Positions 627-28,430 of a stretch of 33,698 nucleotides of DNA are shown piece after piece; position 1 is the first letter of the stretch, and each line of letters begins with the position of its first letter. This stretch comes from an uncultured Verrucomicrobiota bacterium (GTDB lineage: Bacteria; Verrucomicrobiota; Verrucomicrobiia; Limisphaerales; AAA164-E04), in the NCBI GenBank assembly GCA_913061285.1, contig CAJXVR010000037.1:1-33698 (forward strand). The letters are read 5' to 3'. The notes under the pieces are model-generated. The model had not been told where the DNA came from. It was given only the letters and a program-made list of their open reading frames with translations, and made no database searches. A program made the translations under genes and the position numbers.

Positions 627-2234
627 ATGAACATGAAGACGCTGTCCATTCGAATCCTCTTTCTCGTCACGTTATTGGCACCTCGCTTCGGCTACGCTGA
701 AGCGAATCGTCCCAACATCGTCTTTCTTTTTAGTGACGATCTGACCACCCAAGCCATCTCTGCCTACAATTACGGCCTAAAACTTCCGCCGACACCCAAT
801 TTTGATCGTCTGGCACGCGATGGGATGCTCTTCGAGAACAGTTTTTGCGGGAACAGCATTTGCACGCCATCACGAGCAACCGTGATGACCGGTCTCCACA
901 GCCACAAGAACGGCATCGTCAATCTAGGCGGCGCGCTCGATCCACATCGCCCATCGTGGCCGAAGAAACTCAAGCAGAGCGGCTACACCACTGCCGTCTT
1001 CGGTAAATGGCATATGAAGACGAAGCCAAACGGATTTGACGATTGGGAAGTTTTCAGCGGCCAAGGCAGCTACTACAACCCCGATCTTTTTAGCGCCAAA
1101 GGCAACCGACGCGTGGAAGGACATTCTACAGATGTTGTTACCGACGTCGCTTTGAATTGGCTGGATAACCGGGATCACTCTAAACCCTTCGCCCTCCTAA
1201 TTCAGCACAAGGCTCCCCATCGAAACTGGAAACCCAGCATCAAGGAACTCGAACTCTATCGCGACATGACGTTCCCCGAACCTCCGAGCCTTTTTGACAA
1301 CTACGAGAGCCGCATTGCCGCCAAGAACCACAAGATGGGAATCGACGAGCACATGCGCATGGACTCGGATCTCATGATGTTCCGAGGCGACCAAGCCAAT
1401 AGAGTTCTGGGCCGCTTCACCCCAGAACAGCGTGAAGCCTATCTCGCCGCTTTCCAAGAAGAGAATGATGCTTTCATAGCAAATCCGCCAACGGGCAAGG
1501 CATTGGTTCGCTGGAAATATCAACGCTACATGAAGAATTACCTCCGCTGTGTCGCCGGGGTGGACCGCAATGTAGGCAAGGTGCTTGATCGTCTTGACGA
1601 GCTGAATCTTACCGAGAACACGATTGTTGTCTACTGCGCCGACCAAGGCTTCTACCTGGGCGAACACGGATGGTTTGACAAACGATGGGCCTATGAAGAA
1701 TCCCTCCGCATGCCTCTCATCGTCCGATGGCCTGGCACAGTGAAGAAAGGCAGCCGTTCTTCGGCGATGGTTCAAAACATCGACTACGCCCCCACGCTCC
1801 TCGACATGGCCGGAGTCAAACTCGACTGGGAGGTCCATGGCATCAGCCTTCTCCCTTTGCTAAAAAATGGAGGCGCAGCCCCCGAGAACTGGCGCTCAAC
1901 GATCTACTATCGCTACATCGATGGCGGCCACGGAGTCCCGCAACATAGTGCGATTCGAACGAAGGACTTCAAGCTCCTCCATTTCGATCAACCAAGAAAC
2001 GCGGCGGAAGAAGCCAGTATCTGGGAACTCTTCGATCTCAACCAGGATCCTCAAGAGATGCTCAATCTTGCCGGAAAGAGAACCCATGCAACCAAACTTA
2101 AGTCAATGAAGGCGCTCTTTCACAAGACCAAGCAGTATTACGGTGATTCGGACGAAGGAGTTTGGACAAACCGACGAGGCGTGCGATTCGCCGACGAAGA
2201 CTACATTCGCCCTCCTCGTCCTCGACGTCGATAA
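627..2234 (+). CDS. Secreted formylglycine-dependent sulfatase (type I, CTPSR)
   Basis: Hydrolyses sulfate esters, probably of a polysaccharide or glycoconjugate, after export. The start at ATG 627 gives a signal peptide (residues 1 to about 24, hydrophobic core ILFLVTLLA, cleavage likely after GYA). An ATG two codons later (633) is also possible. Metal ligands Asp37-Asp38 lie in FLFSDDL. The catalytic Cys79, to be converted to formylglycine, sits in CTPSR followed by the usual ATVMTG. The KWHM motif supplies the conserved Lys/His, and a C-terminal 'ADQGFYLGEHGWFDKRW' block carries the second metal Asp. That block and the length (535 aa) resemble sulfatases annotated as N-acetylglucosamine-6-sulfatase/heparan-type enzymes (SulfAtlas S1_11-like), but substrate cannot be fixed by eye. 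First gene of a + strand series with GDPD, a second sulfatase, a membrane hydroxylase and a third sulfatase. Confidence 0.93.
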   Translation: MNMKTLSIRILFLVTLLAPRFGYAEANRPNIVFLFSDDLTTQAISAYNYGLKLPPTPNFDRLARDGMLFENSFCGNSICTPSRATVMTGLHSHKNGIVNLGGALDPHRPSWPKKLKQSGYTTAVFGKWHMKTKPNGFDDWEVFSGQGSYYNPDLFSAKGNRRVEGHSTDVVTDVALNWLDNRDHSKPFALLIQHKAPHRNWKPSIKELELYRDMTFPEPPSLFDNYESRIAAKNHKMGIDEHMRMDSDLMMFRGDQANRVLGRFTPEQREAYLAAFQEENDAFIANPPTGKALVRWKYQRYMKNYLRCVAGVDRNVGKVLDRLDELNLTENTIVVYCADQGFYLGEHGWFDKRWAYEESLRMPLIVRWPGTVKKGSRSSAMVQNIDYAPTLLDMAGVKLDWEVHGISLLPLLKNGGAAPENWRSTIYYRYIDGGHGVPQHSAIRTKDFKLLHFDQPRNAAEEASIWELFDLNQDPQEMLNLAGKRTHATKLKSMKALFHKTKQYYGDSDEGVWTNRRGVRFADEDYIRPPRPRRR

Positions 2235-2262
2235 CAGGCAAACTACCCCGAGCGCACCCGAC

Positions 2263-3237
2263 TTGAATGCTCTGCAAACAGTCAGTGCGACAGGCCCTCG
2301 ATTCATTCGCACAGCCGTCGCCGTCGCCCTAGCTATCCTCGCATCGACGGTCGCTCCAACCTGCCATATGACGGCAGCGGAGCAAAATAAAGGGGCCGCC
2401 CTTGGCATCGGCCCCAGCAATGTTGAGCGAACCTTAACGGCGATCCGCGATCCCAATTCCTCGGTCGTTCTTGTGGCAGCCCACCGAGGCGGCTACAAGA
2501 ACGACAAACTTGACCTCGCTCCAGAGAACTCGATTGAGAACATTCTAAATTGCCAGCGGAAGGGATACGATCTCTACGAAACCGATATTCAGCGCACGAA
2601 AGATGGTCACTTTGTCATCATGCATGATCCGACCATCGACCGAGAGACCAACAGCCATGGGGAGGTTCGCAACCATTCTCTGAAGGCGCTCAAACAGCTC
2701 CACAAGCGATATCGCGATGGCACCTTGTCGACAGCAAGAATGGCGACCTTAGCGGAGTTTCTGACGCAAGGGGATGGACGCACAATATTCAAGGCAGACC
2801 TCAAACCAGGTGTCAGCACCTACTTTAAAGAACTCCTCACGCTTATCGAGGAGCAGGATGGCTTTGACAAAGTCATCTTTCGGGTGCCCTACCATGAACT
2901 GCCGCGATTCATTCAGTACAAGACCGACGGCCTCGTTTGGCCCCGTCACAGCCTCATGTTCCGAATTAAGAATCGATTCGAGTTGGACCACGTCATTAAG
3001 GAATTCAATCCCTCACTCATCCATATCGATGTGAAACGCAACGACCCAGCAAACGACGAAACCCTCGATCTCATTCGCGATGCCCGAGACCGCGGGCTTC
3101 ATATTCAAACCCACGCCGAGGGTGAGCCCGAAGATTGGTCAAAACTTGTCTATGCTGGGGTGCGTATGTTCCATACGAGCGCCCCAGACCAACTCGCGCT
3201 CTTCTGTCGGACACTCAACGCATCAGCCCACCGATGA
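2263..3237 (+). CDS. Glycerophosphodiester phosphodiesterase family protein, exported
   Basis: TIM-barrel enzyme expected to hydrolyse glycerophosphodiesters to an alcohol and glycerol-3-phosphate. Visible family motifs are the catalytic 'AAHRGG', PENS, the metal-binding 'YETDIQRTKDGHFVIMHD' block, the following IDRETN segment, and a Lys-containing 'FKADLKPG' strand. The track start (GTG 2143) lies 92 bases inside the upstream sulfatase and is unlikely. TTG 2263, 28 bases after that stop, gives about 324 residues and retains a signal-peptide-like segment (FIRTAVAVALAILASTVAPT). ATG 2368 would remove the export signal. No good Shine-Dalgarno sequence marks either start. The position between two secreted sulfatases suggests a shared extracytoplasmic substrate, perhaps the head group of a sulfated phospho- or glycolipid. 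Family assignment is firm, start and substrate are not. Confidence 0.85.
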   Translation: MNALQTVSATGPRFIRTAVAVALAILASTVAPTCHMTAAEQNKGAALGIGPSNVERTLTAIRDPNSSVVLVAAHRGGYKNDKLDLAPENSIENILNCQRKGYDLYETDIQRTKDGHFVIMHDPTIDRETNSHGEVRNHSLKALKQLHKRYRDGTLSTARMATLAEFLTQGDGRTIFKADLKPGVSTYFKELLTLIEEQDGFDKVIFRVPYHELPRFIQYKTDGLVWPRHSLMFRIKNRFELDHVIKEFNPSLIHIDVKRNDPANDETLDLIRDARDRGLHIQTHAEGEPEDWSKLVYAGVRMFHTSAPDQLALFCRTLNASAHR

Positions 3238-3299
3238 GCCACGCCGTCTGCGCCGCCCGAGGGCGAGACAATTCTGCCCAACCCGTCCCAAGAGAATCA

Positions 3300-4736
3300 A
3301 TGAAACCGACTCGATCTAAACTCGCCGCCATTCTACTGTTGGCCCTACTACTCTCCGTCACTGGGCAAGGCGCAGATCGCAAATCGCAAACCGCCCCAAA
3401 CAGACCAGCCAAACCCAACATCATTTTCATCTTCATCGATGACCAAGGTTACTACGACCTCGCTTGCTACGGCGCAACCGAGGTCAAGACTCCGCGAATC
3501 GACGCGATGGCAGCGTCCGGGACACGCTTCACCGACTACTACGCAGCGGCACCCATTTGTAGCCCCTCAAGAGCCGGTCTTTTGACGGGGTGCTACCCCA
3601 GACGAATCGGCAACGAGATTTGGGTACACCGCGCCGATTCCCGCTCAGGAATTCATCCCGACGAACTAACCATTGCCGAACTGCTAAAGGAGAACGGTTA
3701 CACCACTGCCTGCGTCGGAAAATGGCATCTCGGATTTCGCGAGCCATTCCTCCCGCGCAATCAAGGCTTCGATCACTACTTCGGCTTACTTCACAATCTA
3801 GACCCGGTTGAGATCATCTACTTTAAGGACACAGGCGGCGTTCCATTGATGCGCAACGACACCGTTATCAAACGCCCAGCCGATCCCGCCGAACTGACAG
3901 AGCGATATACCGATGAAGCGATTCACTTCATCGAAAAAAATAAGAATCACCCCTTCTTCCTGTATCTTCCACACACCATGCTACATAATCCGCTTGGCGT
4001 TAGCGACGCGTTCAAGGGTAGCTCAAACTGGGGCGAATACGGCGACGCCATCCAAGAACTCGACTACAACGTCGGCCGCATCTTCGATTCGCTAACGCGC
4101 TTCGACATCGATGAGAACACCATAGTGATCTACGCGTCAGACAATGGCCGAGGTCCCGGAAGAACTCCGGAACAGAAGATTCGGGGACGAAAACTTTCAA
4201 CCTATGAAGGCGGTATTCGAGTTCCTGCGATCGCCTGGGGTCCCGGCTTAGGTTTACAAGAAGGGCAAGAATCATCCACTCCTGTTCGTGCCATGGACTG
4301 GTATCCAACACTGGCGACCTTTGCTGGCATACGTGTCCCGGAAGGCAGAACTATTGACGGACGTGATATCAGCCCCTTACTCAAAGGGGAGACTCGCAGT
4401 GTGCCTTCCCCCATGGCAAATCAGTCACTGAACGCCTCCATACCACTACGACGACGATGGGATCCAGCGGGCGAATGGGCGCCCCTCTTCAGCCGCGAGG
4501 AATACAACGATGCTTTTTTCTATCATGGAAGCCACGGTGCACTCGCAGCCGTCCGATGGAGTCATTGGAAACTCACGCTCCACCCAACGCTCCAACTCTT
4601 CGACCTCACCAAAGATCCGGGAGAATCCCAGAGCATGCGCAATCGCGAAATCTCGCGCAAGCTACGCGGCATGACAGTCTTGTTTCAGGAAGAAATGCGT
4701 CTTGACGCTCGCCCCGCAGGAGACGCCCTCGATTGA
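3300..4736 (+). CDS. Secreted arylsulfatase-like sulfatase (CSPSR)
   Basis: The track ORF starts at a TTG inside the upstream gene. ATG 3300 is preferred because it opens a classical signal peptide (MKPTRSKLAAILLLALLLSV, cleavage around residue 25) and leaves a 62-base gap. The mature enzyme has Asp47-Asp48 (FIDDQG), formylglycine precursor Cys87 in CSPSRAGLLTG, GKWHLG, and 'YASDNGRGPG' for the C-terminal metal site, followed by the 'YEGGIRVPAI' strand. At 478 residues it is of normal length for arylsulfatase A/galactosamine-sulfatase-type family S1 enzymes. Within CSPSR the bases are those needed for anaerobic (anSME) or aerobic (FGE) maturation, but neither maturase is encoded in the window. 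Likely co-transcribed with the GDPD and the other sulfatases. The exact sulfate position it attacks is unknown. Confidence 0.92.
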   Translation: MKPTRSKLAAILLLALLLSVTGQGADRKSQTAPNRPAKPNIIFIFIDDQGYYDLACYGATEVKTPRIDAMAASGTRFTDYYAAAPICSPSRAGLLTGCYPRRIGNEIWVHRADSRSGIHPDELTIAELLKENGYTTACVGKWHLGFREPFLPRNQGFDHYFGLLHNLDPVEIIYFKDTGGVPLMRNDTVIKRPADPAELTERYTDEAIHFIEKNKNHPFFLYLPHTMLHNPLGVSDAFKGSSNWGEYGDAIQELDYNVGRIFDSLTRFDIDENTIVIYASDNGRGPGRTPEQKIRGRKLSTYEGGIRVPAIAWGPGLGLQEGQESSTPVRAMDWYPTLATFAGIRVPEGRTIDGRDISPLLKGETRSVPSPMANQSLNASIPLRRRWDPAGEWAPLFSREEYNDAFFYHGSHGALAAVRWSHWKLTLHPTLQLFDLTKDPGESQSMRNREISRKLRGMTVLFQEEMRLDARPAGDALD

Positions 4737-4827
4737 AGCTTCAAACTCGAATTGAAGCGACTCATCCGACTATTTTCTATCGTTTCGCTCTCGAGTCCCC
4801 TTGGGCTCGTCCGCTACACTCGCTGAA

Positions 4828-5832
4828 ATGGCAGGAACGGACGCAAAGAAATCAGACGATCGAGACACGTGGAATCACACGACTCCCGTGACGTTCTCGC
4901 CCCTATTTGATTGGCCTCCAAGCCCAAAGGATATTCTCCTCACCCTAACGAAACGTTGGGTCACACTGACGCGAAATGTCCTCTTTCTCTTGATGGCGTG
5001 GTTGGTCTATCGAGTTTCGCTCCAAGATTTGACAACCTTTCAGTCACTGTCAGCGAACTGGATCCTCCCAGTTTTCTTGAGAAACTTCCTTTTCATGACA
5101 CTGATCGCGGGCGGACTTCATCTCTACCTTTTCACCCTGAGAGCCCAGGGAAAGAAGCTCAAATACGACCACCGTGACGATCTAGAAAAAAGCGGAAAGT
5201 TTTCGTTTCGAAATCAAGTCTGGGACAATGTGTTTTGGTCCCTGGCAAGTGGTGCGACAACGTGGTCACTCTATGAAACCTTCTATTTATGGGCCCTAGC
5301 AAATAGAATGGTGCCGAGCTTTGCTATCACTGATCATCCTTTCATCTTTGTCGCCTGGCTCCTCATTCTCCCCGTTCTGACCTCCTCGCATTTTTACCTC
5401 GTGCATCGCTTGCTTCACTGGCCTCCCCTTTACAAACGTGTCCACCGCCTCCACCATCGCAACATACACATCGGCCCCTGGTCGGGGATGTCAATGCACC
5501 CTGTCGAGCACGTCATCTATCTCTCATCCGTCCTCGTGCATTTCGTCCTTCCATCGCATCCCGTGTTGATGCTCGTACACCTGTATAGCCGTTCCCTGGG
5601 GCCCGCGTTCTCTCACTCCGGATTTGAGAAACTATTAGTCAAAGATACCGCCATTTTTGATTCCGCCGATTTCCACCACCAACTGCATCATCGCTTTTTC
5701 GAATGCAACTACGGCACCGTCGACGCTCCCTGGGACCGATGGTTTGGTTCCTATCACGATGGATCCGACGAGGCAACCCGACGGGTTCGGGAACAGAGAA
5801 AGCGCATGTATCGCAGCAAGCCCGCAGACTAA
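4828..5832 (+). CDS. Sterol desaturase / fatty acid hydroxylase superfamily membrane protein
   Basis: Integral membrane di-iron oxygenase of the fatty acid hydroxylase superfamily (PF04116 type), which introduces OH groups or double bonds into sterols, fatty acids or ether lipids. With start ATG 4828 (334 aa; a TTG at 4801 is the alternative) the histidine clusters appear in canonical order: HRLLH (193-197), HRLHH (206-210), HPVEH (224-228) and HHQLHH (283-288). About four to five hydrophobic helices precede and separate them (for example LFLLMAWLVY, FLFMTLIAGGLHLYLF, FIFVAWLLILPVL and VIYLSSVLVHFVL). It lies between two secreted sulfatases, 91 bases after the first and 51 before the second, which is unusual company and hints at a lipid or steroid substrate. 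The exact substrate cannot be deduced. Confidence 0.88.
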   Translation: MAGTDAKKSDDRDTWNHTTPVTFSPLFDWPPSPKDILLTLTKRWVTLTRNVLFLLMAWLVYRVSLQDLTTFQSLSANWILPVFLRNFLFMTLIAGGLHLYLFTLRAQGKKLKYDHRDDLEKSGKFSFRNQVWDNVFWSLASGATTWSLYETFYLWALANRMVPSFAITDHPFIFVAWLLILPVLTSSHFYLVHRLLHWPPLYKRVHRLHHRNIHIGPWSGMSMHPVEHVIYLSSVLVHFVLPSHPVLMLVHLYSRSLGPAFSHSGFEKLLVKDTAIFDSADFHHQLHHRFFECNYGTVDAPWDRWFGSYHDGSDEATRRVREQRKRMYRSKPAD

Positions 5833-5846
5833 GAACACTCACATCG

Positions 5847-5859
5847 GCGGTGAAACCGC
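5847..5859 (+). other. Small stem-loop between hydroxylase and sulfatase genes
   Basis: A perfect 5-bp stem with a three-base loop (GCGGT-GAA-ACCGC) lies 15 bases after the hydroxylase stop and 25 before the sulfatase ATG. No T-run follows, so it is more likely an mRNA processing/stability element than a terminator, or chance. Confidence 0.25.
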
Positions 5860-5883
5860 TGGTAGATTGATACAAACAGAACG

Positions 5884-7308
5884 ATGAAAACCCTTTTCCT
5901 ACTTCTCTTGTTTTTGCTGGCCAGCCCGATTGCAACGGCACGAGACCACGCAAGACCAAATATCATATACTTGATGCTCGACGAATGGGGCTATTTCGAG
6001 TCGGGCCACATGGGGCATCGTGAACTACTGACACCCAACATTGACCGATTCGCGAGTGAAGGAATGCGCTTTACAAACGCCCTAGCCGGCGCCCCCGTAT
6101 GCGGCCCCACTCGTTGCACTCTACTCACAGGCCTTCATTCAGGCCACACATCCATGCGTATCAACAACGGCTTCGCTCCAATCCGAGAAGAGGAACCAAC
6201 GATTGCGAGCATGTTAAAGAAACGCGGTTACGCAACCGGCGGATTCGGCAAGTGGGGTATCGGAGGTCGCGGCACCTCAGGCGTCCCTGAGAAACATGGC
6301 TTCGACGAATTCTTTGGCTACTACGATCAAGTTCACGCCCACACATTCTACCCCAAGTATTTGATCCACAACAGCGAGGAAGTCCCACTCAAGGGCAACA
6401 AAGGAACGAGCTTCTACGAAGGAGAAACACATGCTCAAACTGAAATATTCAAAGAGTCCGTACGCTTCATTCGCGAGAACAAGGACACGTCCTTCTTCTG
6501 CTACCTCCCCTGGACACCACCCCACGGTCTCTGGGGCATCGACGAAGACGATCCGTCCTGGCAACTCTTCAAGGACAAACCCTGGAAAGCGGGGCAACGA
6601 ACCGAGAACGACGCCAAAGTCTACGCCGCATTCATCCATATGATCGATCGGCAACTTGGAAAGATTATCGCTCTCCTCAAAAAACTCGGGATCGACAACA
6701 ACACCCTCTTCATTCTCTGTGGCGACAACGGCGGCCAAGACTACTTTAAGAGCGCAGAACGCCCTCACGGTTTCTTTGGGCCCAACCTCAACCCAAACAC
6801 CGGAGAACGATTTCGAGCCGGTAAAGGCTCTCTCTACGAAGGCGGGCTCAGAGTTCCCTTTCTAGTGCGTTGGCCCGGACATATCAACGCCGCGTCCGTT
6901 TCCGACCACCTCCTTTACTTCCCTGACGTGATGCCGACCCTAGCGGCCCTCACCCAATCGAAGAGCCCTAAAACGGACGGCCTTTCTTTCCTTCCCACGC
7001 TCCTTGGCAAACCCGGGCAAGCAGAGCACGAATACCTCTATTGGGAATATCAGGGACAAACAGCAGTTCGCGCGAGAAACTGGAAGGCCTATCACTCAAG
7101 AAATGGCGATTGGGAGCTCTACAATCTCGCGAACGACATCGAAGAACAAAACAACCTCGCAGACACCGAGCCAGGAACATTAAGCCGCCTCACAACATAT
7201 GCCAAAATCGCCCATGAACCAGTGAGAGCAGGCAAGATCTACAATCGCACCCTCACGGAAAAAGATCACCGCCAGGCCCCGCACCAGAGAAACCAAAAAA
7301 GGCGTTAA
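5884..7308 (+). CDS. Secreted sulfatase with CGPTR active-site motif
   Basis: Signal peptide at residues 1-19 (KTLFLLLLFLLASPIATA). Metal pair is Asp33-Glu34 (LMLDEWG) where most family members have Asp-Asp. The formylglycine precursor Cys73 is in CGPTR, so the usual serine is threonine, which still fits the C-x-P-x-R consensus used by the aerobic generating enzyme. GKWGIG replaces the commoner GKWHLG, with Gly in the His position. 'LCGDNGGQDYF' and 'YEGGLRVPFLVRWPG' complete the fold; length 474 aa is normal. ATG 5884 is the only start consistent with the signal peptide. Third sulfatase of the + strand series and apparently its last gene. The two departures from consensus (DE, KWGI) suggest a distinct subfamily, not inactivation, because Cys and Arg of the nucleophile elbow are intact. 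Confidence 0.9.
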   Translation: MKTLFLLLLFLLASPIATARDHARPNIIYLMLDEWGYFESGHMGHRELLTPNIDRFASEGMRFTNALAGAPVCGPTRCTLLTGLHSGHTSMRINNGFAPIREEEPTIASMLKKRGYATGGFGKWGIGGRGTSGVPEKHGFDEFFGYYDQVHAHTFYPKYLIHNSEEVPLKGNKGTSFYEGETHAQTEIFKESVRFIRENKDTSFFCYLPWTPPHGLWGIDEDDPSWQLFKDKPWKAGQRTENDAKVYAAFIHMIDRQLGKIIALLKKLGIDNNTLFILCGDNGGQDYFKSAERPHGFFGPNLNPNTGERFRAGKGSLYEGGLRVPFLVRWPGHINAASVSDHLLYFPDVMPTLAALTQSKSPKTDGLSFLPTLLGKPGQAEHEYLYWEYQGQTAVRARNWKAYHSRNGDWELYNLANDIEEQNNLADTEPGTLSRLTTYAKIAHEPVRAGKIYNRTLTEKDHRQAPHQRNQKRR

Positions 7309-16475: not shown

Positions 16476-17906
16476 CTATCGCCATTGGGCTGCCCAGGTT
16501 GACGTTTGGAATTGGCTTCGAATATTCCACTCACGTAGCTCTGCAAGGAGTCGCTCCTTCTCACCCTTGACGTCCTTTTGGTTCCAAAGATTCTCTAGCT
16601 CGTTGGGATCGTTCTGTAGGTCAAACAATTGCCCCCAGGGCTCATCAAGAAAATGGACGAGTTTCCATTGCTTATCTCGAACCATCGTCATGAATTGTGA
16701 GGTCGTAAAATTGCCATCGCCCGATTGTTCGGCATACACATAGGAGCGCCCGGCATCGCTCTCACCCTCCAAGGCCGCGCGTAATGAAAGGGCTTCAAGT
16801 GGCTCAGGCTTCTTCGCGCCCGCTAACTCCAGCAGGGTCGGGCCGATATCCATCTGCTGGCAAAGGGCCTCCACAACTCGACCGCCACTAAATCGCTTTG
16901 GAGCCCAAACAATCATCGGCACCCGGGTCACCAAATCGTACATCGTCCACTTCTGGCTATGCCCGTGATCCGTCAAACAGTCGCCATGATCTGAAGTAAA
17001 TACCACAATCCCGTTCTCCAAGTATCCCTGCTCTTCCAAAGCCGCCAGGATCTCGCCAATCTTCTCATCGATCATCGTCACGTTGGCCGAATAATAGGCA
17101 CGCTGCCGATGGCGTTGCTCGTCACTCGGCTGCAACAGATGGACCACCGAGTCATGATCGACTTCGGTGTTGTGACGCCTCATCCCGTGAAAAGGTTTCG
17201 GTTGCCCCGCTAGTTCCTTCTCCGTCACCGGCAATATGGGTAGTTGTTTACTCAGATAGCGCTCTGCATACCGAGGGATCGGATCATACGGGGGATGGGG
17301 GCCAGGAAAACCAATCTGTAGAAACAGAGGATCCTTCTTAGGATAATTCTTAATCCACCAGGTCGCCAAATCCCCAACAAAGAAATCGGGATGCGAATCT
17401 TCAGGCAATTCCCACTCAAAGGCACCCAATCGCTCCCGATAGTCGGGGAGCTGACGGTAGAGTTCACGCTGTTGTTTCACCAATCCACGTGCCCGTAAGG
17501 CTTTGTCCCACTCATCGAGATAATAGCGCCCTTCCAAGTAGCGATCTTTATTCTCCACAACAAAGCGCTGATCAAATCCCAGGGGCGTCTCAAATGGCCA
17601 GGTATGCATCTTCCCAATGTTAGTACAGTGGTAACCCGCCGAATTGAGCGTTTCGACCCAGGAATGCCGCCACTCGTCGGCGTTCTTCAGAATGCCTGTT
17701 GTGTGGGGATATAATCCAGTGAAGAGACTCGCGCGCGCGGGAGCGCAGGAAGCAGCGCTGACGAAACAATGCTCGAAACTAACCCCTTCCCGAATCAAGC
17801 GATCGAGCACAGGAGTCTCCATGTGATCAAAGCCTAGTCCATTAATGGTATCGTACCGTTGCTGATCGGTAATGATGAAAATGATATTTGGTTGCTCGGA
17901 GGCCAT
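16476..17906 (-). CDS. Cytoplasmic sulfatase (no signal peptide, CAPAR motif)
   Basis: Family S1 sulfatase of 476 residues that starts directly with the fold (MASEQPNIIFIITDQQR) and has no signal peptide, so it should act in the cytoplasm, unlike the other four in the window. Metal residues Asp14-Gln15 are the DQ variant common in choline-sulfatase-like and glycosaminoglycan-type 'TDQQR' enzymes. Formylglycine precursor Cys54 lies in CAPAR, with alanine in the usual serine position but consistent with C-x-P-x-R. GKMHTWP supplies the Lys/His pair, and 'FTSDHGDCLTDHG' the C-terminal metal site. It is the 5'-most gene of a seven-gene - strand run with two transporters, an aminotransferase, a NagA-like deacetylase and a sugar-acid dehydratase, which suggests it removes sulfate from an imported small molecule. 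Confidence 0.92.
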   Translation of the reverse strand: MASEQPNIIFIITDQQRYDTINGLGFDHMETPVLDRLIREGVSFEHCFVSAASCAPARASLFTGLYPHTTGILKNADEWRHSWVETLNSAGYHCTNIGKMHTWPFETPLGFDQRFVVENKDRYLEGRYYLDEWDKALRARGLVKQQRELYRQLPDYRERLGAFEWELPEDSHPDFFVGDLATWWIKNYPKKDPLFLQIGFPGPHPPYDPIPRYAERYLSKQLPILPVTEKELAGQPKPFHGMRRHNTEVDHDSVVHLLQPSDEQRHRQRAYYSANVTMIDEKIGEILAALEEQGYLENGIVVFTSDHGDCLTDHGHSQKWTMYDLVTRVPMIVWAPKRFSGGRVVEALCQQMDIGPTLLELAGAKKPEPLEALSLRAALEGESDAGRSYVYAEQSGDGNFTTSQFMTMVRDKQWKLVHFLDEPWGQLFDLQNDPNELENLWNQKDVKGEKERLLAELREWNIRSQFQTSTWAAQWR

Positions 17907-18719: not shown

Positions 18720-20246
18720 ATGACGGAGAGCATCGGTAATTCCCGCAATCAAAAAATCTCCCCCCAGATCGTAGGCAGAGAGACGGTGCCCAGTCCCGAG
18801 GCGGCAAGATCATTTCCGGTCTGCTTGCTTGGCCTACCGCTCTTTGCCCCGGTTACTGAAATTCTAACCTCAGCTATCCGCCGAACCAATTCATCGAAAA
18901 CGCAGCGTGCTAAGTATTTTGCTACGGCCTGCTTCGAAACCTTGTTGACAGCCGCGGAAGACAGCGAAATCCATCGCTTCTTGTCCAACGCCGACCATCT
19001 CTTTCCCAGTGGTCTTCCTGCCCGTTTCGCGAGCAAACAATTCGGCTTATCCTTTCAGAATAGTCACTCGCAACGAACGATTACGAATCAGCTACTCGAC
19101 TATGCAGAAGCCAACGACAAGTCACTCTTTATCGTCGGGCAACGACCACAAAAACACGCCAAACCGGCGAGCAATATCTCAAAGCGCCGACCTCAACTCA
19201 AACTTGCCGGTGAGCGCTGGATCTGGCCAAAGGATTGGACAAACAAAGACGCGTTTGAACTCAACAAGCTACTGCAAGAGCGACGCCCGGATATCATTCT
19301 TTGCTCTCTAAAATACATCCCGGCAAAATCATGGATGGCTGAAAACGGCCGAGCCTTAGCAAAATCGATTGTTTTCGAACTTGGCTCGAGCGACCTTCTT
19401 TTCGAATCCATCACTGGGGTTCGTTACCAAAACAACTTCCACTCGTGGCTCCTACGTCCCTTCAATCGCTTTAAATTCCTTGCTCGATTTAATCTCCAGT
19501 ACTTCAAGCGACTAGGAAAATTCATTGCCCAAAACTTCAGCCAACGACAGGTTCTGCGAAGCTGCCAAAGAAGAACGCAAGCCCATCCCAAGGACGCCCT
19601 CTTTCCTAGGGTTCCTGCCGAGGAGTTTGATCTCATTACCCTCCCCAGCCGATTCGACATATCGTTTCTACGGCGATTTCATTCAGAGTGGCACCAGCTC
19701 GCAAACGCGACCCAGGGGGTCGTTCTCAACGCGGCAGCTGTCGAGTCATTTGATATGATGACGCTAGGGACCCTCCTACACCTCACCCAAGCCCTCCAAC
19801 AAGCAGGCCATCACCTTGTCATCCAAGACCCACCTCTTTCATTGGTTCGATTCATACAACACGCTAAACTCTCTTCAAGCCTGCATACTCGATACAATCA
19901 AGCTTCCGCAGAAGAGCTTGCTAGAGAAAGTGCATGGACCAGGGCCGGCGCTGTCGATCCCACAAGTGAAGCGATCGTGTGGAAAGGCAACGTTACCGCG
20001 CAGACCATCGATCGTATCTGGGAGGATACAACAGGAACGATCAAGCGGAAGGAACAAACCACCCAAAGCTTTCAAGTCGACCTAAACAAAGTCACCCTGC
20101 TAGATAGCACAGGCATTGGCACGATGATTAAGTTGAAAAAGCGTCTGAGCAAACAAGGATACCGCATCGCTTACGTTAACCCGAATCAGAACGTCCGAAA
20201 GGTTCTGGAGATGACCCAGCTTTCTGAATACCTCCTCAAGGACTAA
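18720..20246 (+). CDS. Degenerate WecG/TagA-like glycosyltransferase domain fused to two STAS domains
   Basis: 508 residues with an unusual architecture. Residues about 35-270 follow the WecG/TagA/CpsF (GT26) pattern: 'FATACFETLLTAAEDSEIHRFLSNAD' parallels the helix before the active site, 'SLFIVGQRPQ' the central strand and glycine loop, and 'RRPDIILCSLKYIPAKSWM' the nucleotide-binding segment. But the catalytic Asp of the conserved P/ADG is missing (FPSGLP), G-x-P-K-Q-E has become KYIPAKSW, and the GVGG loop is ELGSSD, so enzyme activity looks lost. Residues about 303-392 form a first STAS domain without the D-S-x-G phosphoacceptor (SFDMMTLG). Residues about 415-506 form a second STAS domain with it intact (DSTGIG, 462-467). 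ATG 18720 gives the full fold. It is followed by a stand-alone STAS gene and a CsaB-like gene. The GT26 call rests on motif pattern by eye and needs a profile search. Confidence 0.7.
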   Translation: MTESIGNSRNQKISPQIVGRETVPSPEAARSFPVCLLGLPLFAPVTEILTSAIRRTNSSKTQRAKYFATACFETLLTAAEDSEIHRFLSNADHLFPSGLPARFASKQFGLSFQNSHSQRTITNQLLDYAEANDKSLFIVGQRPQKHAKPASNISKRRPQLKLAGERWIWPKDWTNKDAFELNKLLQERRPDIILCSLKYIPAKSWMAENGRALAKSIVFELGSSDLLFESITGVRYQNNFHSWLLRPFNRFKFLARFNLQYFKRLGKFIAQNFSQRQVLRSCQRRTQAHPKDALFPRVPAEEFDLITLPSRFDISFLRRFHSEWHQLANATQGVVLNAAAVESFDMMTLGTLLHLTQALQQAGHHLVIQDPPLSLVRFIQHAKLSSSLHTRYNQASAEELARESAWTRAGAVDPTSEAIVWKGNVTAQTIDRIWEDTTGTIKRKEQTTQSFQVDLNKVTLLDSTGIGTMIKLKKRLSKQGYRIAYVNPNQNVRKVLEMTQLSEYLLKD

Positions 20247-20289
20247 CCAAGAGAAGAGCGGCTCGCTTCGATTTCATTCGGGGTCAACA

Positions 20290-20301
20290 AATTTTAAAAT
20301 T
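20290..20301. promoter_or_regulatory. AT-rich perfect palindrome upstream of STAS gene
   Basis: AATTTTAAAATT is a perfect 12-bp palindrome 59 bases before the STAS gene ATG. It overlaps a plausible -10-like TAAAAT with GGTCAA further upstream. It may be a promoter or operator, or simply AT-rich sequence. Confidence 0.25.
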
Positions 20302-20360
20302 CTATCGTGGTTCCCACCAGGTTCGCTGTATTATTCCCAGAAATCCGAGCGATAAGGACA

Positions 20361-20681
20361 ATGCAACTAGAAACTCAGGGCACCAAATTGGTTGTCTCAA
20401 AGGTTCCGGAGCTGACGGCGAGCAACGCGTCAGACATCAAGACGGAAGTTAAGGCTGCGATCGAGGACACGCATACTCAGATCGACATCGACCTTTCAAC
20501 AACGGGCTTCGTCGATAGTAGTGGCCTCGGGGTGCTAATTGGGCTGCACAAGGCGATGGTAGCGAAGCAGGGATCGATCCGAATTCTCAATCCGGGCGAG
20601 AGCGTTCAGCAAGTCCTGGAGCTCACGCGCCTCCACCGCCTCTTCGAAGTCGTCATTTCAAATCCGAATGCTACCGAGTAA
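20361..20681 (+). CDS. Stand-alone STAS protein (anti-sigma-factor antagonist family)
   Basis: With ATG 20361 (106 aa, preceded by AAGGACA) this is a single STAS domain of the SpoIIAA/RsbV type. The track start, GTG 20307, adds 18 residues with no domain similarity. The phosphoacceptor motif DSSGLG (residues 52-57) is intact, and the usual 'TRLHRLFEV' C-terminal helix is present. In characterised systems such proteins switch partners (an HPK-like kinase/anti-sigma factor) on phosphorylation. No kinase, phosphatase or sigma factor gene is seen nearby. Its neighbours are the GT26-like double-STAS fusion 114 bases upstream and the pyruvyltransferase-like gene 81 bases downstream, so it probably acts with them. 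All three in one direction suggests an operon. Confidence 0.9.
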   Translation: MQLETQGTKLVVSKVPELTASNASDIKTEVKAAIEDTHTQIDIDLSTTGFVDSSGLGVLIGLHKAMVAKQGSIRILNPGESVQQVLELTRLHRLFEVVISNPNATE

Positions 20682-20762
20682 GGCACCCGTCAGATCTTGA
20701 GTTCGTGAGCGTGTCAAACCTCCTGAGCAATCAGATCTCAAACACCTCACACGCCCCCACAA

Positions 20763-21992
20763 ATGGAGGAAGAACCTACGAACAAGCCCCGAATCCTCAT
20801 CGGTGGCGTTCCCTTCGGGCGCGGCAATGTTGCTGATGAAGCGGTTGCGGAAGCGGTCGTAACGATCGTCCGTGAACTCTGCCCAACGGCAGAAATATCC
20901 GTCAGCACAGATCAGGAAGCTCCAACGCGGAAAAGGCTTAGCATAAAAACCAGCCCACTGATTGAGTTTCCGGATTCAAAGATCAGCCAGGAAATGACCC
21001 GTGAAATCATACGGGACCAGGACTGGATTATTTGGGCTGGCGCGTTTGGGCTTTCCGATTATCCGCTCGAAGCGCTGAGCCTCCTCGATCAGGCGCAGCA
21101 GGAAGGTGTCAAAACCATTATTTTCTGCGTTGGCCAGGACTCTCGGGCAACACGCCCCACTACGTCAGGCGCGAAGAAAGCACTCTTCGGAACGATTCGC
21201 TTTCTCACCGCTGGAATCGTCGATCTCAACGCAGAATCAGAGGCGAAGCGGGATGCGTCCCTCGTTGAAATAATAAACCGAGTGATCCCCAAGACGGATC
21301 TCGTCATCTTGAGAGATCACGCAACGGCCAACGAACTCGGCAAGCTCCTCGATGCACCGGAACCAAAGCTGATTGGGGCTGACCCGATGATCTCATTGAC
21401 TTGTCAGGACATCGACACCTGTCGTTTTCCACGAGATACGATGGACTTTCTCGAACGATCCGATTTCAAGATCGCGCTCAGTATTTCTAGCGATTATCCT
21501 GCGGCCTCTTTGCGGAGAATCAAAAGCACACTGGATTCACTCATCACGAACAAGCAAGCCAAGTTCCTCGGTATCCCCTTGAATCCATCGACGGATACTC
21601 AGGCGCTTACCGAACTTCAATCCCAACTTGAAACTCCAGCAGCCATGCTTGTCCTCAAGGGAAGCTATGACCCGGACGAAATCATGGCGGCTACAAGCAG
21701 AGTTGACGTAGTGATTAGTGACCAACGCGAACTCCTCTTCCTAGCAGCGAACACGTTGACTCCCTTCGTCAACCTTGGACCTCACTCGTCTAGCAAAACG
21801 TTGGCCGAGCAATTTGGTCTTCCGACTGTTAACAATTGCAGCGATGTGGAATCCGAAATCTTCGCAAAGGAGATTGCGGAGCTCACGGAGATTCGAGCCT
21901 CCTTTCGAAAGAAAGCCATCACGGTGAAACTCGACATGCTCGCCCAGCTCAAAGCCGCAAAACAGCAGTTGAGTGATACGCTTAACCGCTAG
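20763..21992 (+). CDS. CsaB-like polysaccharide pyruvyltransferase-family protein, possibly inactive
   Basis: 409 residues of the polysaccharide pyruvyl transferase (PF04230) type, a GT-B-like fold that in CsaB adds ketal pyruvate to cell-wall polymer. The N-terminal 'GGVPFGRGNVADEAVAEA' matches the family G-x-G-N-x-G-D-E-A motif. 'IWAGAFGLSD', 'IIFCVGQDS' and 'DLVILRDHATANELGKLL' followed by ADPMISL match the central blocks. The C-terminal R-x-H segment (usually G-x-R-L-H) is REL in 'VVISDQRELLFLAANT', so a residue important in characterised pyruvyltransferases is absent. In Bacillus and cyanobacteria csaB and tagA-type genes are often adjacent, and the same pairing here supports both family calls. 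Ends about 100 bases before a strong terminator. Function may be structural or regulatory rather than catalytic. Confidence 0.75.
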   Translation: MEEEPTNKPRILIGGVPFGRGNVADEAVAEAVVTIVRELCPTAEISVSTDQEAPTRKRLSIKTSPLIEFPDSKISQEMTREIIRDQDWIIWAGAFGLSDYPLEALSLLDQAQQEGVKTIIFCVGQDSRATRPTTSGAKKALFGTIRFLTAGIVDLNAESEAKRDASLVEIINRVIPKTDLVILRDHATANELGKLLDAPEPKLIGADPMISLTCQDIDTCRFPRDTMDFLERSDFKIALSISSDYPAASLRRIKSTLDSLITNKQAKFLGIPLNPSTDTQALTELQSQLETPAAMLVLKGSYDPDEIMAATSRVDVVISDQRELLFLAANTLTPFVNLGPHSSSKTLAEQFGLPTVNNCSDVESEIFAKEIAELTEIRASFRKKAITVKLDMLAQLKAAKQQLSDTLNR

Positions 21993-22089: not shown

Positions 22090-22119
22090 AAAGGATGAGA
22101 ACCTAAGTTCTCATCCTTT
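22090..22119. terminator. Strong bidirectional intrinsic terminator
   Basis: A perfect 10-bp GC-containing stem (GGATGAGAAC, 22093-22102; loop CTAA; GTTCTCATCC, 22107-22116) is flanked by A-run on the left and TTTA on the right, extending pairing to 13 bp. It lies between the converging CsaB-like (+) and pseudopilin (-) genes, where a bidirectional rho-independent terminator is expected. Confidence 0.88.
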
Positions 22120-23309: not shown

Positions 23310-24665
23310 ATGATTGTAGCTATTTTTGAAGGAGCATCAAGCGGGCAGATTACCCATCAGATCGAAACGCTGGGTCATCGGCATCAAACATGTGATGAAG
23401 CTGGGATCAGTGAACTAAGCCACCATTCTACCGGCCTGGTCTATGTGTTTCCCATCGCTGTCACCCAAACCTCCCTTTGGCCCAGCCTCCGAGTCCGACT
23501 TGCTCACACGAATCGGCTTTATATCGTTGCTGGCGAGAATGCGCCGACGGACCAAATCGTCTCAGCAGTCAGGGACGGTGCGTACGACTATTTAGACCTC
23601 AACGACAGCGATACCCGTTGGAATAAGGCCCTCGAAAAGGCGGTGGAATCCCAAAGTCTTTGGATCCAACTCTATGGTGGAGCCCCGATGGAGACGGAAG
23701 ATATGTTGATTGGACAGTCTCCCGGTATGCAACATCTCAAAGAGGCGATTTCTCGACTTGGGCCAACGGACGCTACCGTGTTAATCCTTGGAGATTCAGG
23801 CGTCGGCAAAGAACGGGTCGCCGAGGCCCTTCATAAGGCGAGTGGGAAAGGTCCCTTTGTCCCCATTAATTGTGCTGCGATCCCCAAAGACTTGATTGAA
23901 GCCGAACTCTTCGGCGCAGTTAAAGGGGCCTACACGGGAGCTCTCAAAGACCGCCAAGGCCTGGTAGAACAAGCCCGTGGGGGAACCCTTTTCCTGGACG
24001 AAATCGGTGAATTCGATATCAGCCTCCAACCAAAGCTGCTCCGCTTCCTCGAAACGAGAATGGCAAGAAAGGTGGGTGGAACGAGTGAGTACAAAGCAGA
24101 TCTACGTTTGATCTCAGCAACCAATCGCAATCTCCAAGATGATATCGACTCAAATAGCTTCCGAGCGGACCTTTATTACCGTCTGTCAGAAATCACCCTC
24201 CGCGTTCCTCCCCTTCGGCTTCGACTGGAGGACATTCCATTGTTCACGATTAGCTTCATGCAGAAAGCTGGGGAACGTTTCGGCAAAATGTTTGATCAAG
24301 TCGAACCAGGCCTAGTCAAACGATTTCAAAGCTACGATTGGCCAGGGAATGTGCGGGAGCTTAAAAGTCATATAGACCGAATGGTTATCCTGTACGATGG
24401 ACCGATTCTCAGGGAGGCATGGTGGGATCAACCCCAGAGCGGGCAGGCTCGGGCCCAACAAGCCGCAGGAACGACCGATCCAGCAAAAACCAGATTTCCA
24501 CACGACCTTTCCGCCCCCCCCACGAGAATCCCCTCACAAAAGGAGCGAATCGAGCGAGCCAAGGAACTCTTGGCCAACGACGACCAGAATTTGAGCTGGG
24601 TATCAGCTCAGCTAGGAATCCACCCCACGACGCTCTATCGCTGGAGAAAACAAGGCAAAGTATAG
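23310..24665 (+). CDS. Sigma-54-dependent transcriptional activator with degenerate receiver domain
   Basis: 451-residue NtrC-family enhancer-binding protein. The AAA+ domain begins near residue 131 (MLIGQSPGM) and has Walker A GDSGVGKE, sigma-54 contact loop GAYTGA (Phe to Tyr variant of GAFTGA), Walker B GGTLFLDEIG, and 'FRADLYYRL' for the arginine finger. A Fis-type HTH follows at the C-terminus (LSWVSAQLGIHPTTLYRWRK). Residues 1-120 keep a receiver-like pattern ('QIVSAVRDGAYDYLDL' matches helix 4/strand 5), but no phosphoacceptor Asp is present at strand 3 (LVYVFPIAV) and the conserved Lys is Asn/Asp, so it is probably not controlled by phosphorylation. ATG 23310 is the track start and no better one was found. 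Its divergent neighbour, a pseudopilin with a possible sigma-54 promoter, is the likely target. Confidence 0.92.
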   Translation: MIVAIFEGASSGQITHQIETLGHRHQTCDEAGISELSHHSTGLVYVFPIAVTQTSLWPSLRVRLAHTNRLYIVAGENAPTDQIVSAVRDGAYDYLDLNDSDTRWNKALEKAVESQSLWIQLYGGAPMETEDMLIGQSPGMQHLKEAISRLGPTDATVLILGDSGVGKERVAEALHKASGKGPFVPINCAAIPKDLIEAELFGAVKGAYTGALKDRQGLVEQARGGTLFLDEIGEFDISLQPKLLRFLETRMARKVGGTSEYKADLRLISATNRNLQDDIDSNSFRADLYYRLSEITLRVPPLRLRLEDIPLFTISFMQKAGERFGKMFDQVEPGLVKRFQSYDWPGNVRELKSHIDRMVILYDGPILREAWWDQPQSGQARAQQAAGTTDPAKTRFPHDLSAPPTRIPSQKERIERAKELLANDDQNLSWVSAQLGIHPTTLYRWRKQGKV

Positions 24666-25944: not shown

Positions 25945-26808
25945 ATGACGGACTCATCAAAGTATCTGCCAAAACGTGAAATCGGATGTTCGGAACATGG
26001 TCTTCGTGCCCTTTCGCTTCGCGAACGATTCGAGCTCCTCAAAAACCTAGGGATTGAAGCACTCGAACTTCGACTGGGAAAAGAACTGTCGGAGGATGCC
26101 GCCAAGCTTGCGAACGAAGAACAGCTCGCCGCGCTACGCAGCCTCCGCGACCAATTCAAAATCAGTACCCCCTTTTGCTCCGTCGAGTGCGATCTCACTT
26201 CAATCAACTCGGCCGATTCGAATCAAAATCTGCCCCAAGCCATTGAACACTTTCGGACCGCAGCAAGCATTGGAGCGAGGACAATAAATCTCACCGTCAC
26301 ACAGGTTCCTACGATCGAAGTGACTGAATCGATTTGGGAGCGTTTCGTTGAGTCCCTTTGCCAACTCGGTGAAGAAGCGAGTCAGCTAGGCCTCAGTATC
26401 GCCCTTAAAACCAACGGACACATCGAAGAAGAAACTCAGTCCGGTCTTTTTATTGTCGAAACGCTGATGACAAATCGAAGCACATTGACTCGACTGATGC
26501 CGACACTCCCGAGCAACGTTGGATTCGGATACAGTCCAGGAATGTTCAAGGCGGTCAATCCCAGCGACCTGCGATTCGGAATCGATATCATCGAAGAACG
26601 AACTGAAACCTGTTTTCTCCAAGACTGGAGACAGCAGAATCGCAGTCTCACAGGCGCGGTGATTGGCGCCGATGATCTCGACTATCGCTCTCTCTTGCGA
26701 CGGCTTCCAACCAATACCCCTTGCCTTATTTCGCTCCCGTCAATCAAGTCGGCCAAAGTAGAAATCGAAACGAGCATGGCCTATCTCAATAGAATTCTCG
26801 CCCCATGA
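25945..26808 (+). CDS. Sugar-phosphate-isomerase/epimerase-like TIM-barrel protein
   Basis: With ATG 25945 (287 aa) the protein begins just before the first barrel strand; the track start at 25810 lies inside the pseudopilin gene. 'GLRALSLRERFELLKNLGIEALELRLG' is the typical first strand-helix unit of AP-endonuclease-2/xylose-isomerase-like (IolE/IolI-type) barrels, and the helix-strand alternation continues (SIGARTINLTVTQ, QLGLSIALKTNGH). The positions that usually bind the metal are poorly kept: the 'YDPGH' type site reads 'GYSPGMFKAVNPSD', with neither Asp nor His at the expected place. So it may be inactive or have a different site. Its TGA overlaps the sulfatase ATG (ATGA), so the two are translationally coupled. 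Substrate unknown; a desulfated sugar is a reasonable guess. Confidence 0.6.
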   Translation: MTDSSKYLPKREIGCSEHGLRALSLRERFELLKNLGIEALELRLGKELSEDAAKLANEEQLAALRSLRDQFKISTPFCSVECDLTSINSADSNQNLPQAIEHFRTAASIGARTINLTVTQVPTIEVTESIWERFVESLCQLGEEASQLGLSIALKTNGHIEEETQSGLFIVETLMTNRSTLTRLMPTLPSNVGFGYSPGMFKAVNPSDLRFGIDIIEERTETCFLQDWRQQNRSLTGAVIGADDLDYRSLLRRLPTNTPCLISLPSIKSAKVEIETSMAYLNRILAP

Positions 26809-28430
26809 AGAAGCCCGCAACGAGAAAGGCAAGGTTCTGGCGAGGACAAGAGCCCTGGCCTGTCTCTCTACTACACAGGTTCCTTGCAGTCATCTCGCTT
26901 AGCCTTGGGATTGCGACCAATATTGCCCTTAGCGCTCCTGCGGAAGCGCCCGCCAACATCGCACCACCTCAGTTCACATCCATTTCCGTCAATGCTGAGT
27001 CCTCCGGGATCGAACTCAAGTGGATCTCAGCAAACGGCTCACGCTACAATCTAGAATCCTCCTCTGATCTAATCTCGTGGTCACGCGGAACAACGGTCAC
27101 AGGGGGGACCCATTTCATTGACACCACCGAAGAGTTCTTCGAACAGCGATTCTTTCGTCTCACTCTAACCAGCACCCCAAAGCTACATAATATTCTCCTT
27201 ATCATCGTGGATGATTGGGGCATCGATTCTAGTCCGATCGACAACCCTACAGGGTCCAACCTGCCCCTAATGCCGAATCTCGAATCACTGGCCGAAACCG
27301 GAATCCGGTTTCAAAATGCCTACGCCCTCGCCAAGTGTTCACCAACTCGGGCGAGCATCATGACAGGGCGGTATCCCTTCAGACACGGCATTGGTAGTCC
27401 CGCTGGAGCAGTGCTCCCGGTCTCGGAACTCACGCTTCCCGAGGCCCTAAGCGACTGTAGCGCCTATGCACTGGGCAGCTTTGGAAAATGGCATCTCGGA
27501 GGGGGCAATTCAGGACCAAGAAACAATGGAGGATGGCCGACCTTCGCTGGAGGCCTCGGTTCGGGAGTCGCAGATTACTACAATTGGCAAAAGACAATTC
27601 TTACTGACAACGAACCGCCCCAAACGTTGGCCACGACGAGCTACACTACGACCGACACCACAAACGATGCGATTAAATGGATTGCGGACCAGGAAGACCA
27701 GCCTTGGTTCTGTTGGCTTGCCTACAACGCAGCTCACTCACCCTTTCACGCCCCACCGATCACGGTAGCCGGACAGACTAATCCAAACCCCACTGCGCGC
27801 AATAATCGTGATCGATTTGAAACCATGCTCTGGGCAATGGATGCCGAAATCGGGCGTCTCATCGATACCATTGACCGCACCAATACCAATATCATTCTCC
27901 TCGGCGACAATGGCACTCCCGCAGGGGTGATCCAACCCCCCTTCGATCGCACACACTCAAAGGGAACTCTCTACGAAGGCGGCACACATGTCCCCATGAT
28001 TGTTACCGGGCCCATCGTTTCTACCCCCGGTAGCGTCAATGAACAACTGGTCCATTGTGTCGATGTCTTCCCGACGATTTTAGAATTGGCCGGAGGCGAT
28101 CCCAAAAGCCTTACCACAACTCTCGATGGCATCAGCCTCATTCCGAACCTTCAAGATCAGGGCCAAAGCAATCGAGCAATCGTCTGCGAAGCCTTTGGGC
28201 GCACCGAAAGCAGCCCCGGTAGAGCAATCAGAAACGGTGACTACAAACTGATTATCTTCGACGATCCGAGCCGCTCGACGGACACGGCTGCGCTAGAGCT
28301 CTACTATCTTCCTAGCGACCCCAACGAGTCAAACAACCTCCTGTCGAGAGAGCTCACGGACGTTCAGCGAATTGCCTACGACCAGCTCCTCGAGATCAAC
28401 CTAGAACTTGGGGGCAATTTCAACCAATAA
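26805..28430 (+). CDS. Secreted sulfatase with N-terminal Ig-like module (CSPTR)
   Basis: 541 residues. The leader (MKKPATRKARFW...) is long and basic before a hydrophobic stretch (LAVISLSLGIATNIALSA), giving a signal peptide ending around residue 45. Residues about 53-122 form a beta-sandwich module typical of Verrucomicrobiota exported proteins ('YNLESSSDLISWSRGT' ... 'QRFFRLTL', the Y-x-V/L-E-x-S-x-D-L-x-x-W pattern). The catalytic domain follows: Asp136-Asp137 (IVDDWG), Cys178 in CSPTRASIMTG, GKWHLG, 'LLGDNGTPAG', and 'YEGGTHVPMIVTGP'. Residue 3 of the motif is proline and residue 4 threonine, consistent with C-x-P-x-R. Starts within the ATGA overlap of the TIM-barrel gene. The N-terminal module probably mediates anchoring or carbohydrate binding outside the cell. 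Confidence 0.9.
   Translation: MKKPATRKARFWRGQEPWPVSLLHRFLAVISLSLGIATNIALSAPAEAPANIAPPQFTSISVNAESSGIELKWISANGSRYNLESSSDLISWSRGTTVTGGTHFIDTTEEFFEQRFFRLTLTSTPKLHNILLIIVDDWGIDSSPIDNPTGSNLPLMPNLESLAETGIRFQNAYALAKCSPTRASIMTGRYPFRHGIGSPAGAVLPVSELTLPEALSDCSAYALGSFGKWHLGGGNSGPRNNGGWPTFAGGLGSGVADYYNWQKTILTDNEPPQTLATTSYTTTDTTNDAIKWIADQEDQPWFCWLAYNAAHSPFHAPPITVAGQTNPNPTARNNRDRFETMLWAMDAEIGRLIDTIDRTNTNIILLGDNGTPAGVIQPPFDRTHSKGTLYEGGTHVPMIVTGPIVSTPGSVNEQLVHCVDVFPTILELAGGDPKSLTTTLDGISLIPNLQDQGQSNRAIVCEAFGRTESSPGRAIRNGDYKLIIFDDPSRSTDTAALELYYLPSDPNESNNLLSRELTDVQRIAYDQLLEINLELGGNFNQ

Follow-up and report, generated by a model that had tools for sequence, protein, structure and literature searches.

Catalytically eroded GT26-STAS-STAS and CsaB-like paralogues in a verrucomicrobial genome as candidate parts of an exopolysaccharide partner switch

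In Vibrio fischeri, the SypA/SypE partner switch of the syp locus controls polysaccharide production (PMC10120452, PMC4517449); how SypA exerts this STAS-switch control on polysaccharide output has been described as as-yet unknown (PMC4517449). In the SiaA/SiaB/SiaC-SiaD system of Pseudomonas aeruginosa, a kinase and a phosphatase determine whether an antagonist-like protein is phosphorylated, and this state acts directly on an enzyme and not on a sigma factor (PMC8457831). Fusion of a STAS domain to a glycosyltransferase of envelope polysaccharide is exemplified by all4160 of Anabaena (cited in PMC8256260), and no paper joining STAS and WecG was found in the open-access literature. Here, we analyze a 33,698-nucleotide stretch of DNA (the window), contig C37 (CAJXVR010000037.1) of a verrucomicrobial draft genome designated G000 (GCA_913061285.1; assembly size of 8.0 Mb, completeness of 88.9%, contamination of 3.3%). 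Three genes of the window (the trio) encode a GT26 (WecG/TagA) glycosyltransferase domain fused to two STAS domains, a single STAS protein, and a CsaB-like protein. With slightly better than even confidence, we read the trio as exopolysaccharide (EPS) enzymes that would have turned into noncatalytic, STAS-bearing parts of an EPS partner switch.

A large exosortase/PEP-CTERM EPS locus is located on contig C6 of the same genome; it encodes an intact counterpart of the fusion as well as a STAS protein and a CsaB-like protein, and these three genes are not adjacent to one another. As with SypA/SypE, a polysaccharide locus here encodes a single STAS protein and also a protein in which a serine kinase and a PP2C-type phosphatase are combined. 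In SypE, a receiver domain is located between kinase and phosphatase, whereas here a GAF domain takes that place and the receiver is a separate protein; a glycosyltransferase-STAS fusion or a dead enzyme has not been described in V. fischeri. Similarly to the Sia system, the switch would act on an enzyme; however, SiaD is an active diguanylate cyclase, while the protein considered here has a GT26 glycosyltransferase fold, which is eroded in the window copy. In the account that cites it, all4160 has a single N-terminal STAS domain, unlike the fusion, and catalytic loss is not reported. The features of the trio are as follows.

18720..20246, + strand: GT26 (WecG/TagA)-STAS-STAS fusion, 508 amino acids (aa), GT26 catalytically eroded (Pfam/NCBIfam, C6 paralogue, AlphaFold2, Foldseek)
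18990..19391, + strand: GT26 (WecG) profile match, fusion residues 91-224 (profile search)
19008..19010, + strand: Ser97 codon at the position of the GT26 catalytic base Asp65, P-S-G for P-D-G (family alignment; role from PMC6493773)
19323..19328, + strand: Ala202-Lys203 codons at the position of Gln167-Glu168, KYIPAKSW for GCPKQEKW (family alignment)
19635..19859, + strand: STAS domain 1 (STAS1), loss of the phosphosite motif, SFDMMTLG in place of the F-x-DSTG of the family (Pfam STAS_2, residues 306-380)
19986..20231, + strand: STAS domain 2 (STAS2), LLDSTGIG intact, Ser463 codon at 20106-20108 (Pfam STAS, residues 423-504)
20361..20681, + strand: single STAS protein, 106 aa from ATG 20361 (124 aa from GTG 20307), DSSGLG intact (Pfam, C6 homologue)
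20763..21992, + strand: CsaB-like (PS_pyruv_trans) protein, 409 aa, phosphoenolpyruvate (PEP)-binding residues lost (Pfam/NCBIfam, C6 homologue)
21717..21731, + strand: S-D-Q-R-E at the position of S-S-R-L-H, CsaB R306 to Gln and H308 to Glu (alignment; roles from PMC10435577)

The domain composition had been read from the sequence by eye in an earlier note (the original prediction), and profile matches to Pfam and NCBIfam in these three + strand open reading frames bear it out. In the fusion, the WecG/TagA profile (PF03808) scored 38.8 bits (cut-off of 27.4), STAS_2 66 bits, and STAS 59.5 bits; the domain order and full-length similarity are those of a verrucomicrobial fusion family. An AlphaFold2 model of the fusion, built from an alignment that included 41 relatives and therefore biased toward their fold, reached a pLDDT of 82.8 and a pTM of 0.80. 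Foldseek placed TagA at the top of the matches to this model (TMt of 0.80-0.85), followed by STAS proteins, so profile and fold searches agree that the N-terminal domain belongs to GT26.

While the fold is that of the GT26 enzymes TagA/TarA (PMC6493773; PDB 5wb4, 7mpk, and 7n41), the window protein differs from them in the replacement of the catalytic base and most pocket residues and in the addition of two STAS domains. The active site of TagA is lined by T37, N39, D65 (the proposed base), R83, Q167, and E168, together with R214 and R221 from the C-terminal appendage (PMC6493773). At these sites, the family alignment shows N39 changed to Cys, D65 to Ser, R83 to Ser, Q167 to Ala, E168 to Lys, and R221 to Phe in the window fusion, with only T37 and R214 unchanged; the C6 paralogue has the TagA residue at all eight. 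Across the 80 fusion family members used as the conservation reference, N39, D65, R83, Q167, and R221 are each retained in 78 and E168 in all 80. Fifty-eight GT26 columns are at least 95% conserved in this set, and 19 of them are kept in the window fusion compared to 55 in the C6 paralogue and 39 in T. italicus TagA. Basic and hydrophobic residues persist in the altered C-terminal appendage. Judging from the missing catalytic residues, the window GT26 domain has probably lost the capacity for glycosyl transfer. As to the STAS domains, STAS2 has the D-S-[ST]-G phosphosite (DSTGIG) and STAS1 does not (FDMMTLG).

To estimate how widespread such fusions are, the C6 paralogue was used as a query, and full-length GT26-STAS-STAS proteins were found in ~55 of 293 genomes of the order. 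A second collection yielded at least 80 fusion loci, nearly all from Verrucomicrobiota, with one from Luteimonas; the family members of Haloferula luteola and Rubritalea marina have one STAS domain each. The fusion in the record titled Luteimonas panaciterrae (L141:9929-12148) is an open frame of 740 aa and may represent horizontal transfer or a misassigned contig. In these surveys, the architecture itself is common in Verrucomicrobiota with an apparently intact enzyme, and erosion is the uncommon part: the fusion exists as predicted but is not unusual in itself.

The distribution of conservation along the protein has also changed. Between the C6 fusion and three intact orthologues, identity was 53-57% in GT26, 28-40% in STAS1, and 32-37% in STAS2; between the window and C6 fusions, it was 25, 24, and 38%, respectively. 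Since GT26 is the most conserved part among intact fusions and STAS2 the most conserved part in the window-C6 comparison, the order is inverted and, by these identities, constraint in the window fusion has shifted away from the enzyme and onto the STAS part.

The single STAS protein scored 55.7 bits against Pfam STAS and has the DSSGLG phosphosite; ATG 20361 is its likely start because the C6 homologue begins there. The third protein is more remote from its profiles, with a marginal match to PS_pyruv_trans (PF04230; 25.4 bits, cut-off of 25.3), a score of 54.8 bits against CsaB TIGR03609 that is under the equivalog cut-off of 213.1, and zero matches to PDB sequences. Its AlphaFold model, made from a two-row alignment, was unusable (pLDDT of 59, pTM of 0.43), and the pocket was therefore judged from the alignment alone. 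In Paenibacillus alvei CsaB, PEP binding depends critically on R148, H308, and K328, and docking shows a contact with R306 (PMC10435577). The window protein belongs to the same profile family and keeps R148, but unlike P. alvei CsaB it has QRE in place of the RLH motif (R306 to Gln, H308 to Glu) and Ser in place of K328. Thus, the catalytic losses called by eye in the original prediction were correct for the fusion and the CsaB-like protein, since the active-site residues are changed in the alignments to the 80-member family and to the CsaB sites; the erosion does not extend to the single STAS protein, which is not degenerate.

A CsaB-like gene was also found in G006, a genome of the same genus. 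There (L063, G006:C328, 1969-11439), a histidine kinase, a hydrolase, an HNOBA-type histidine kinase, and a 413-aa CsaB-like protein are encoded in the order seen at the flank of the C6 EPS locus. EPS genes are absent at this locus, and the CsaB-like gene stands beside both hybrid histidine kinases that border the C6 EPS locus. The G006 protein reads SRLP (H308 to Pro, K328 to Gln), and a ratio of nonsynonymous to synonymous rates (omega) of 1 was not rejected for its gene (2dlnL of 3.1). The case hints that a CsaB-like protein can be retained without EPS enzymes. In two other genomes, CsaB-like genes are split across frames (G045, L066:5602-6989; G075, L067:1224-2487), through either genuine lesions or assembly errors.

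The residues that remain could also be those of enzymes with altered chemistry, in which the GT26 and pyruvyltransferase folds act on other donors or acceptors and the STAS domains are ordinary regulatory tails. Folds are kept, as are T37 and R214 of GT26 and R148 of CsaB, and the P. alvei mutants H308K and H308S retain some activity (PMC10435577). However, replacements in GT26 affect the base, the Arg83 region, Gln167/Glu168, and Arg221 alike, those in the CsaB-like protein affect R306, H308, and K328, and of the 58 GT26 columns conserved in the family no more than 19 are left, which makes this explanation quite improbable.

By sequence similarity, each gene of the trio is a diverged paralogue of a C6 EPS-locus gene. 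The window and C6 fusions are 26% identical across their whole length (blastp, 2e-41), the single STAS proteins 61%, and the CsaB-like proteins 43% (blastp, 3e-111). The best family match of the window STAS2 is that of the C6 paralogue. In the tree of whole-length fusions, the window branch measures 6.54 changes per column against a median of 0.53 for end branches; because of this long branch, the position of the fusion is unreliable, and the claim that the C6 copy is its nearest paralogue therefore leans on STAS2, the single STAS protein, and the CsaB-like protein. When related loci were searched with the window fusion as the only query, zero were retrieved, the query being too diverged. The original prediction had compared the trio to the known pairing of TagA- and CsaB-type genes. 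This does not hold, as the trio consists of paralogues of nonadjacent C6 genes and the canonical CsaB and WecG pair of the genome is located on another contig (C273). In the C6 EPS locus, we also noted an H-NOX (haem-NO-binding) protein (L018:12726-13268) adjoining an HNOBA-domain hybrid histidine kinase (L018:9828-12713); from this pair, EPS may be controlled by NO or oxygen.

Such divergence is what would be expected if the trio were a remnant of a duplicated EPS module, drifting and without a role. The very long fusion branch, the missing catalytic residues in two genes of the trio, the failure to find a fusion orthologue in relatives, and the frame-split CsaB-like genes in the two genomes of the order fit such decay. 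Against it, three frames have stayed open across 1023 codons despite 26-61% identity to the paralogues, and loss is selective for certain domains, sparing STAS2 and the single STAS protein. In addition, a three-taxon codon model gave an omega of 0.04 for the CsaB-like gene on the window branch and rejected omega = 1 (2dlnL of 19.4); omega = 1 was rejected for the window GT26 branch as well (2dlnL of 12-17), with synonymous sites saturated. Together with a separately eroded clade of fusions conserved in 13 genomes, considered below, these results make decay unlikely.

A regulatory reading of the trio calls for a switch kinase. The sole strong SpoIIAB/RsbW-type ATPase of the genome is encoded on C6 (77 bits; 32 bits for the next). 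It is a 603-aa HATPase_c_2-GAF-SpoIIE kinase-phosphatase, and its gene is followed by one for a receiver protein. Relatives repeatedly show the gene order STAS, kinase-phosphatase, receiver in their EPS loci (L098, L103, and L123; on the other strand in L137 and in L140, which is Rubritalea marina), and in L098 the fusion follows the receiver directly. As this order recurs, the complete partner-switching set appears to belong to the EPS locus of the phylum.

The window contains one more gene of EPS-locus type, 1.3 kb downstream of the trio and beyond the interval of the original prediction:

23310..24665, + strand: sigma-54 activator, orthologue of the activator of EPS/PEP-CTERM loci (profile and similarity)

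Homologues of this activator inside EPS loci are 47-54% identical to it and, in six loci, divergent from a PEP-CTERM gene. The window copy is this genome's orthologue of the EPS-locus activator (513 bits compared to 238 for the next), and no such gene was present in the stretches of the C6 locus that were read; the EPS-type activator and the eroded trio thus occur together in the window. A scan for sigma-54 promoters in the window and the C6 locus gave counts at or near chance (14 matches versus 8.2 expected in L017), and plausible sigma-54-like sites were seen only 5′ of PEP-CTERM genes in L107, L110, and C6. These sites, of the form TGGCA(C)-N5-xTGC with 8-9 of 11 positions matched, include L017:7895-7910 (- strand). 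In the original prediction, the folds of polysaccharide enzymes were suggested to underlie a partner-switching regulator. Comparative findings favor this idea: related fusions have kinase-phosphatase and receiver genes as neighbors, the EPS activator is encoded close to the trio, and a second clade of fusions is eroded.

Other elements of the window lie around the trio. The interval from the CsaB-like gene to a DUF1559 pilin-like gene contains a likely - strand terminator, a perfect 13-bp stem with a T tail at 22090-22119. Sulfatase genes flank the trio (627-7308, 16476-17906, and 26805-28430), five by sequence, and the one at 26805-28430 was confirmed with Pfam. PADLOC gave no defence reading for the trio, and the activator matched generic RtcR-type AAA models only.

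Erosion of the fusion was also observed outside the window. In the fusions of L151 and L152, N39 is changed to Gly, D65 to Glu, R83 is lost, and the C-terminal appendage is deleted. Their orthologues form a clade of 13 genomes in one genus (60-72% identity to L151), in which D65 is replaced by Glu or Gly in 11 of the 12 readable members, all 13 lack the appendage, and both STAS phosphosites are kept in all. At dS below 2, the median omega of this clade was 0.27 in GT26 (maximum of 0.43) and 0.19-0.21 in the STAS domains; for comparison, omega in GT26 of intact relatives was 0.05-0.10. Two points mark this as a separate erosion event: its lesions are not those of the window copy, and its sequences cluster with intact fusions from a different family. 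In six of the genomes (G272, G260, G615, G250, G276, and G613), genes for a kinase-phosphatase and a receiver directly precede the eroded fusion in the same orientation, and in one of these six loci a STAS gene comes before the pair. No EPS biosynthesis genes were found, by similarity to C6, in five loci of this clade spanning 16-19 kb. At L151:6734-13571, the genes for a kinase-phosphatase, a receiver, a PEP-CTERM protein, the eroded fusion, and a CheA-like protein stand in a row. As far as can be judged from sequence, the second clade shows that a fusion without a GT26 active site can persist under selection beside a partner-switch kinase-phosphatase.

This clade also bears on the possibility that the trio has a purely structural role, in which the pseudo-fusion and the pseudo-CsaB hetero-oligomerize with the active C6 paralogues or with an EPS membrane complex and stabilize or inhibit them without phospho-switching. 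TagA was proposed to be inactive as a dimer and to switch to an active monomer at the membrane (PMC6493773), and mixed dimers that include an inactive paralogue are therefore conceivable; the altered appendage also retains basic and hydrophobic residues. We regard a structural role as distinctly unlikely, since it leaves unexplained why STAS2 is the conserved part and why the kinase-phosphatase is linked to eroded fusions in loci without EPS enzymes.

In the partner-switch reading that we prefer, a GT26-STAS-STAS glycosyltransferase, a single STAS antagonist, and a CsaB-like pyruvyltransferase would have been duplicated from the EPS locus. Both enzyme domains would then have lost catalytic residues, with purifying selection keeping the fold, the STAS2 phosphosite, and the single STAS protein. 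The STAS serines, with Ser463 of STAS2 and Ser53 of the single STAS protein as the candidates in the trio, may gain and lose phosphate through the SpoIIAB-type kinase and SpoIIE-type phosphatase of the C6 HATPase_c_2-GAF-SpoIIE protein. The pseudo-fusion could serve as an alternative, bridging, or titrating STAS partner that competes for the switch kinase and antagonist; in this way, it would set the level of free kinase or antagonist and, through it, the active GT26-STAS-STAS protein and expression. The EPS-type sigma-54 activator may act jointly with the pseudo-fusion on EPS expression. A more specific proposal, which we hold only tentatively, is that GT26-STAS-STAS proteins are directly controlled by the partner switch and that at least twice, in the window genome and in the 13-genome clade, GT26 became a pseudoenzyme head that senses or scaffolds, for example by binding a lipid-linked intermediate or the membrane, and reports to the STAS domains and the kinase-phosphatase.

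Several observations weigh against the partner-switch reading. The kinase-phosphatase gene is located on the C6 EPS contig and not in the window or elsewhere on the contig of the trio. A search of 384 genomes of the class revealed no orthologue of the window fusion, whose own constraint is therefore estimated from saturated comparisons only. For the single STAS pair, omega = 1 was not rejected on the window branch (2dlnL of 0.6-1.5) in a test without power. The CsaB-like protein lacks a STAS domain and is without precedent as a regulator, and any regulatory role for it is inferred. The genes of the trio are separated by gaps of 114 and 82 bp, and scanning the trio for promoters and terminators produced no more matches than expected by chance; given the gaps and the promoter scan, an operon is unproven. 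Last, Gln167/Glu168 are mostly retained in the second clade, whose GT26 domain may therefore have residual function.

Fusion of STAS domains to a polysaccharide glycosyltransferase across the whole phylum offers a direct, testable target for a partner switch. Two separate catalytic losses with STAS domains kept amount to a natural separation-of-function experiment. If the proposed reading is true, it would place bacterial glycosyltransferase pseudoenzymes in signalling.

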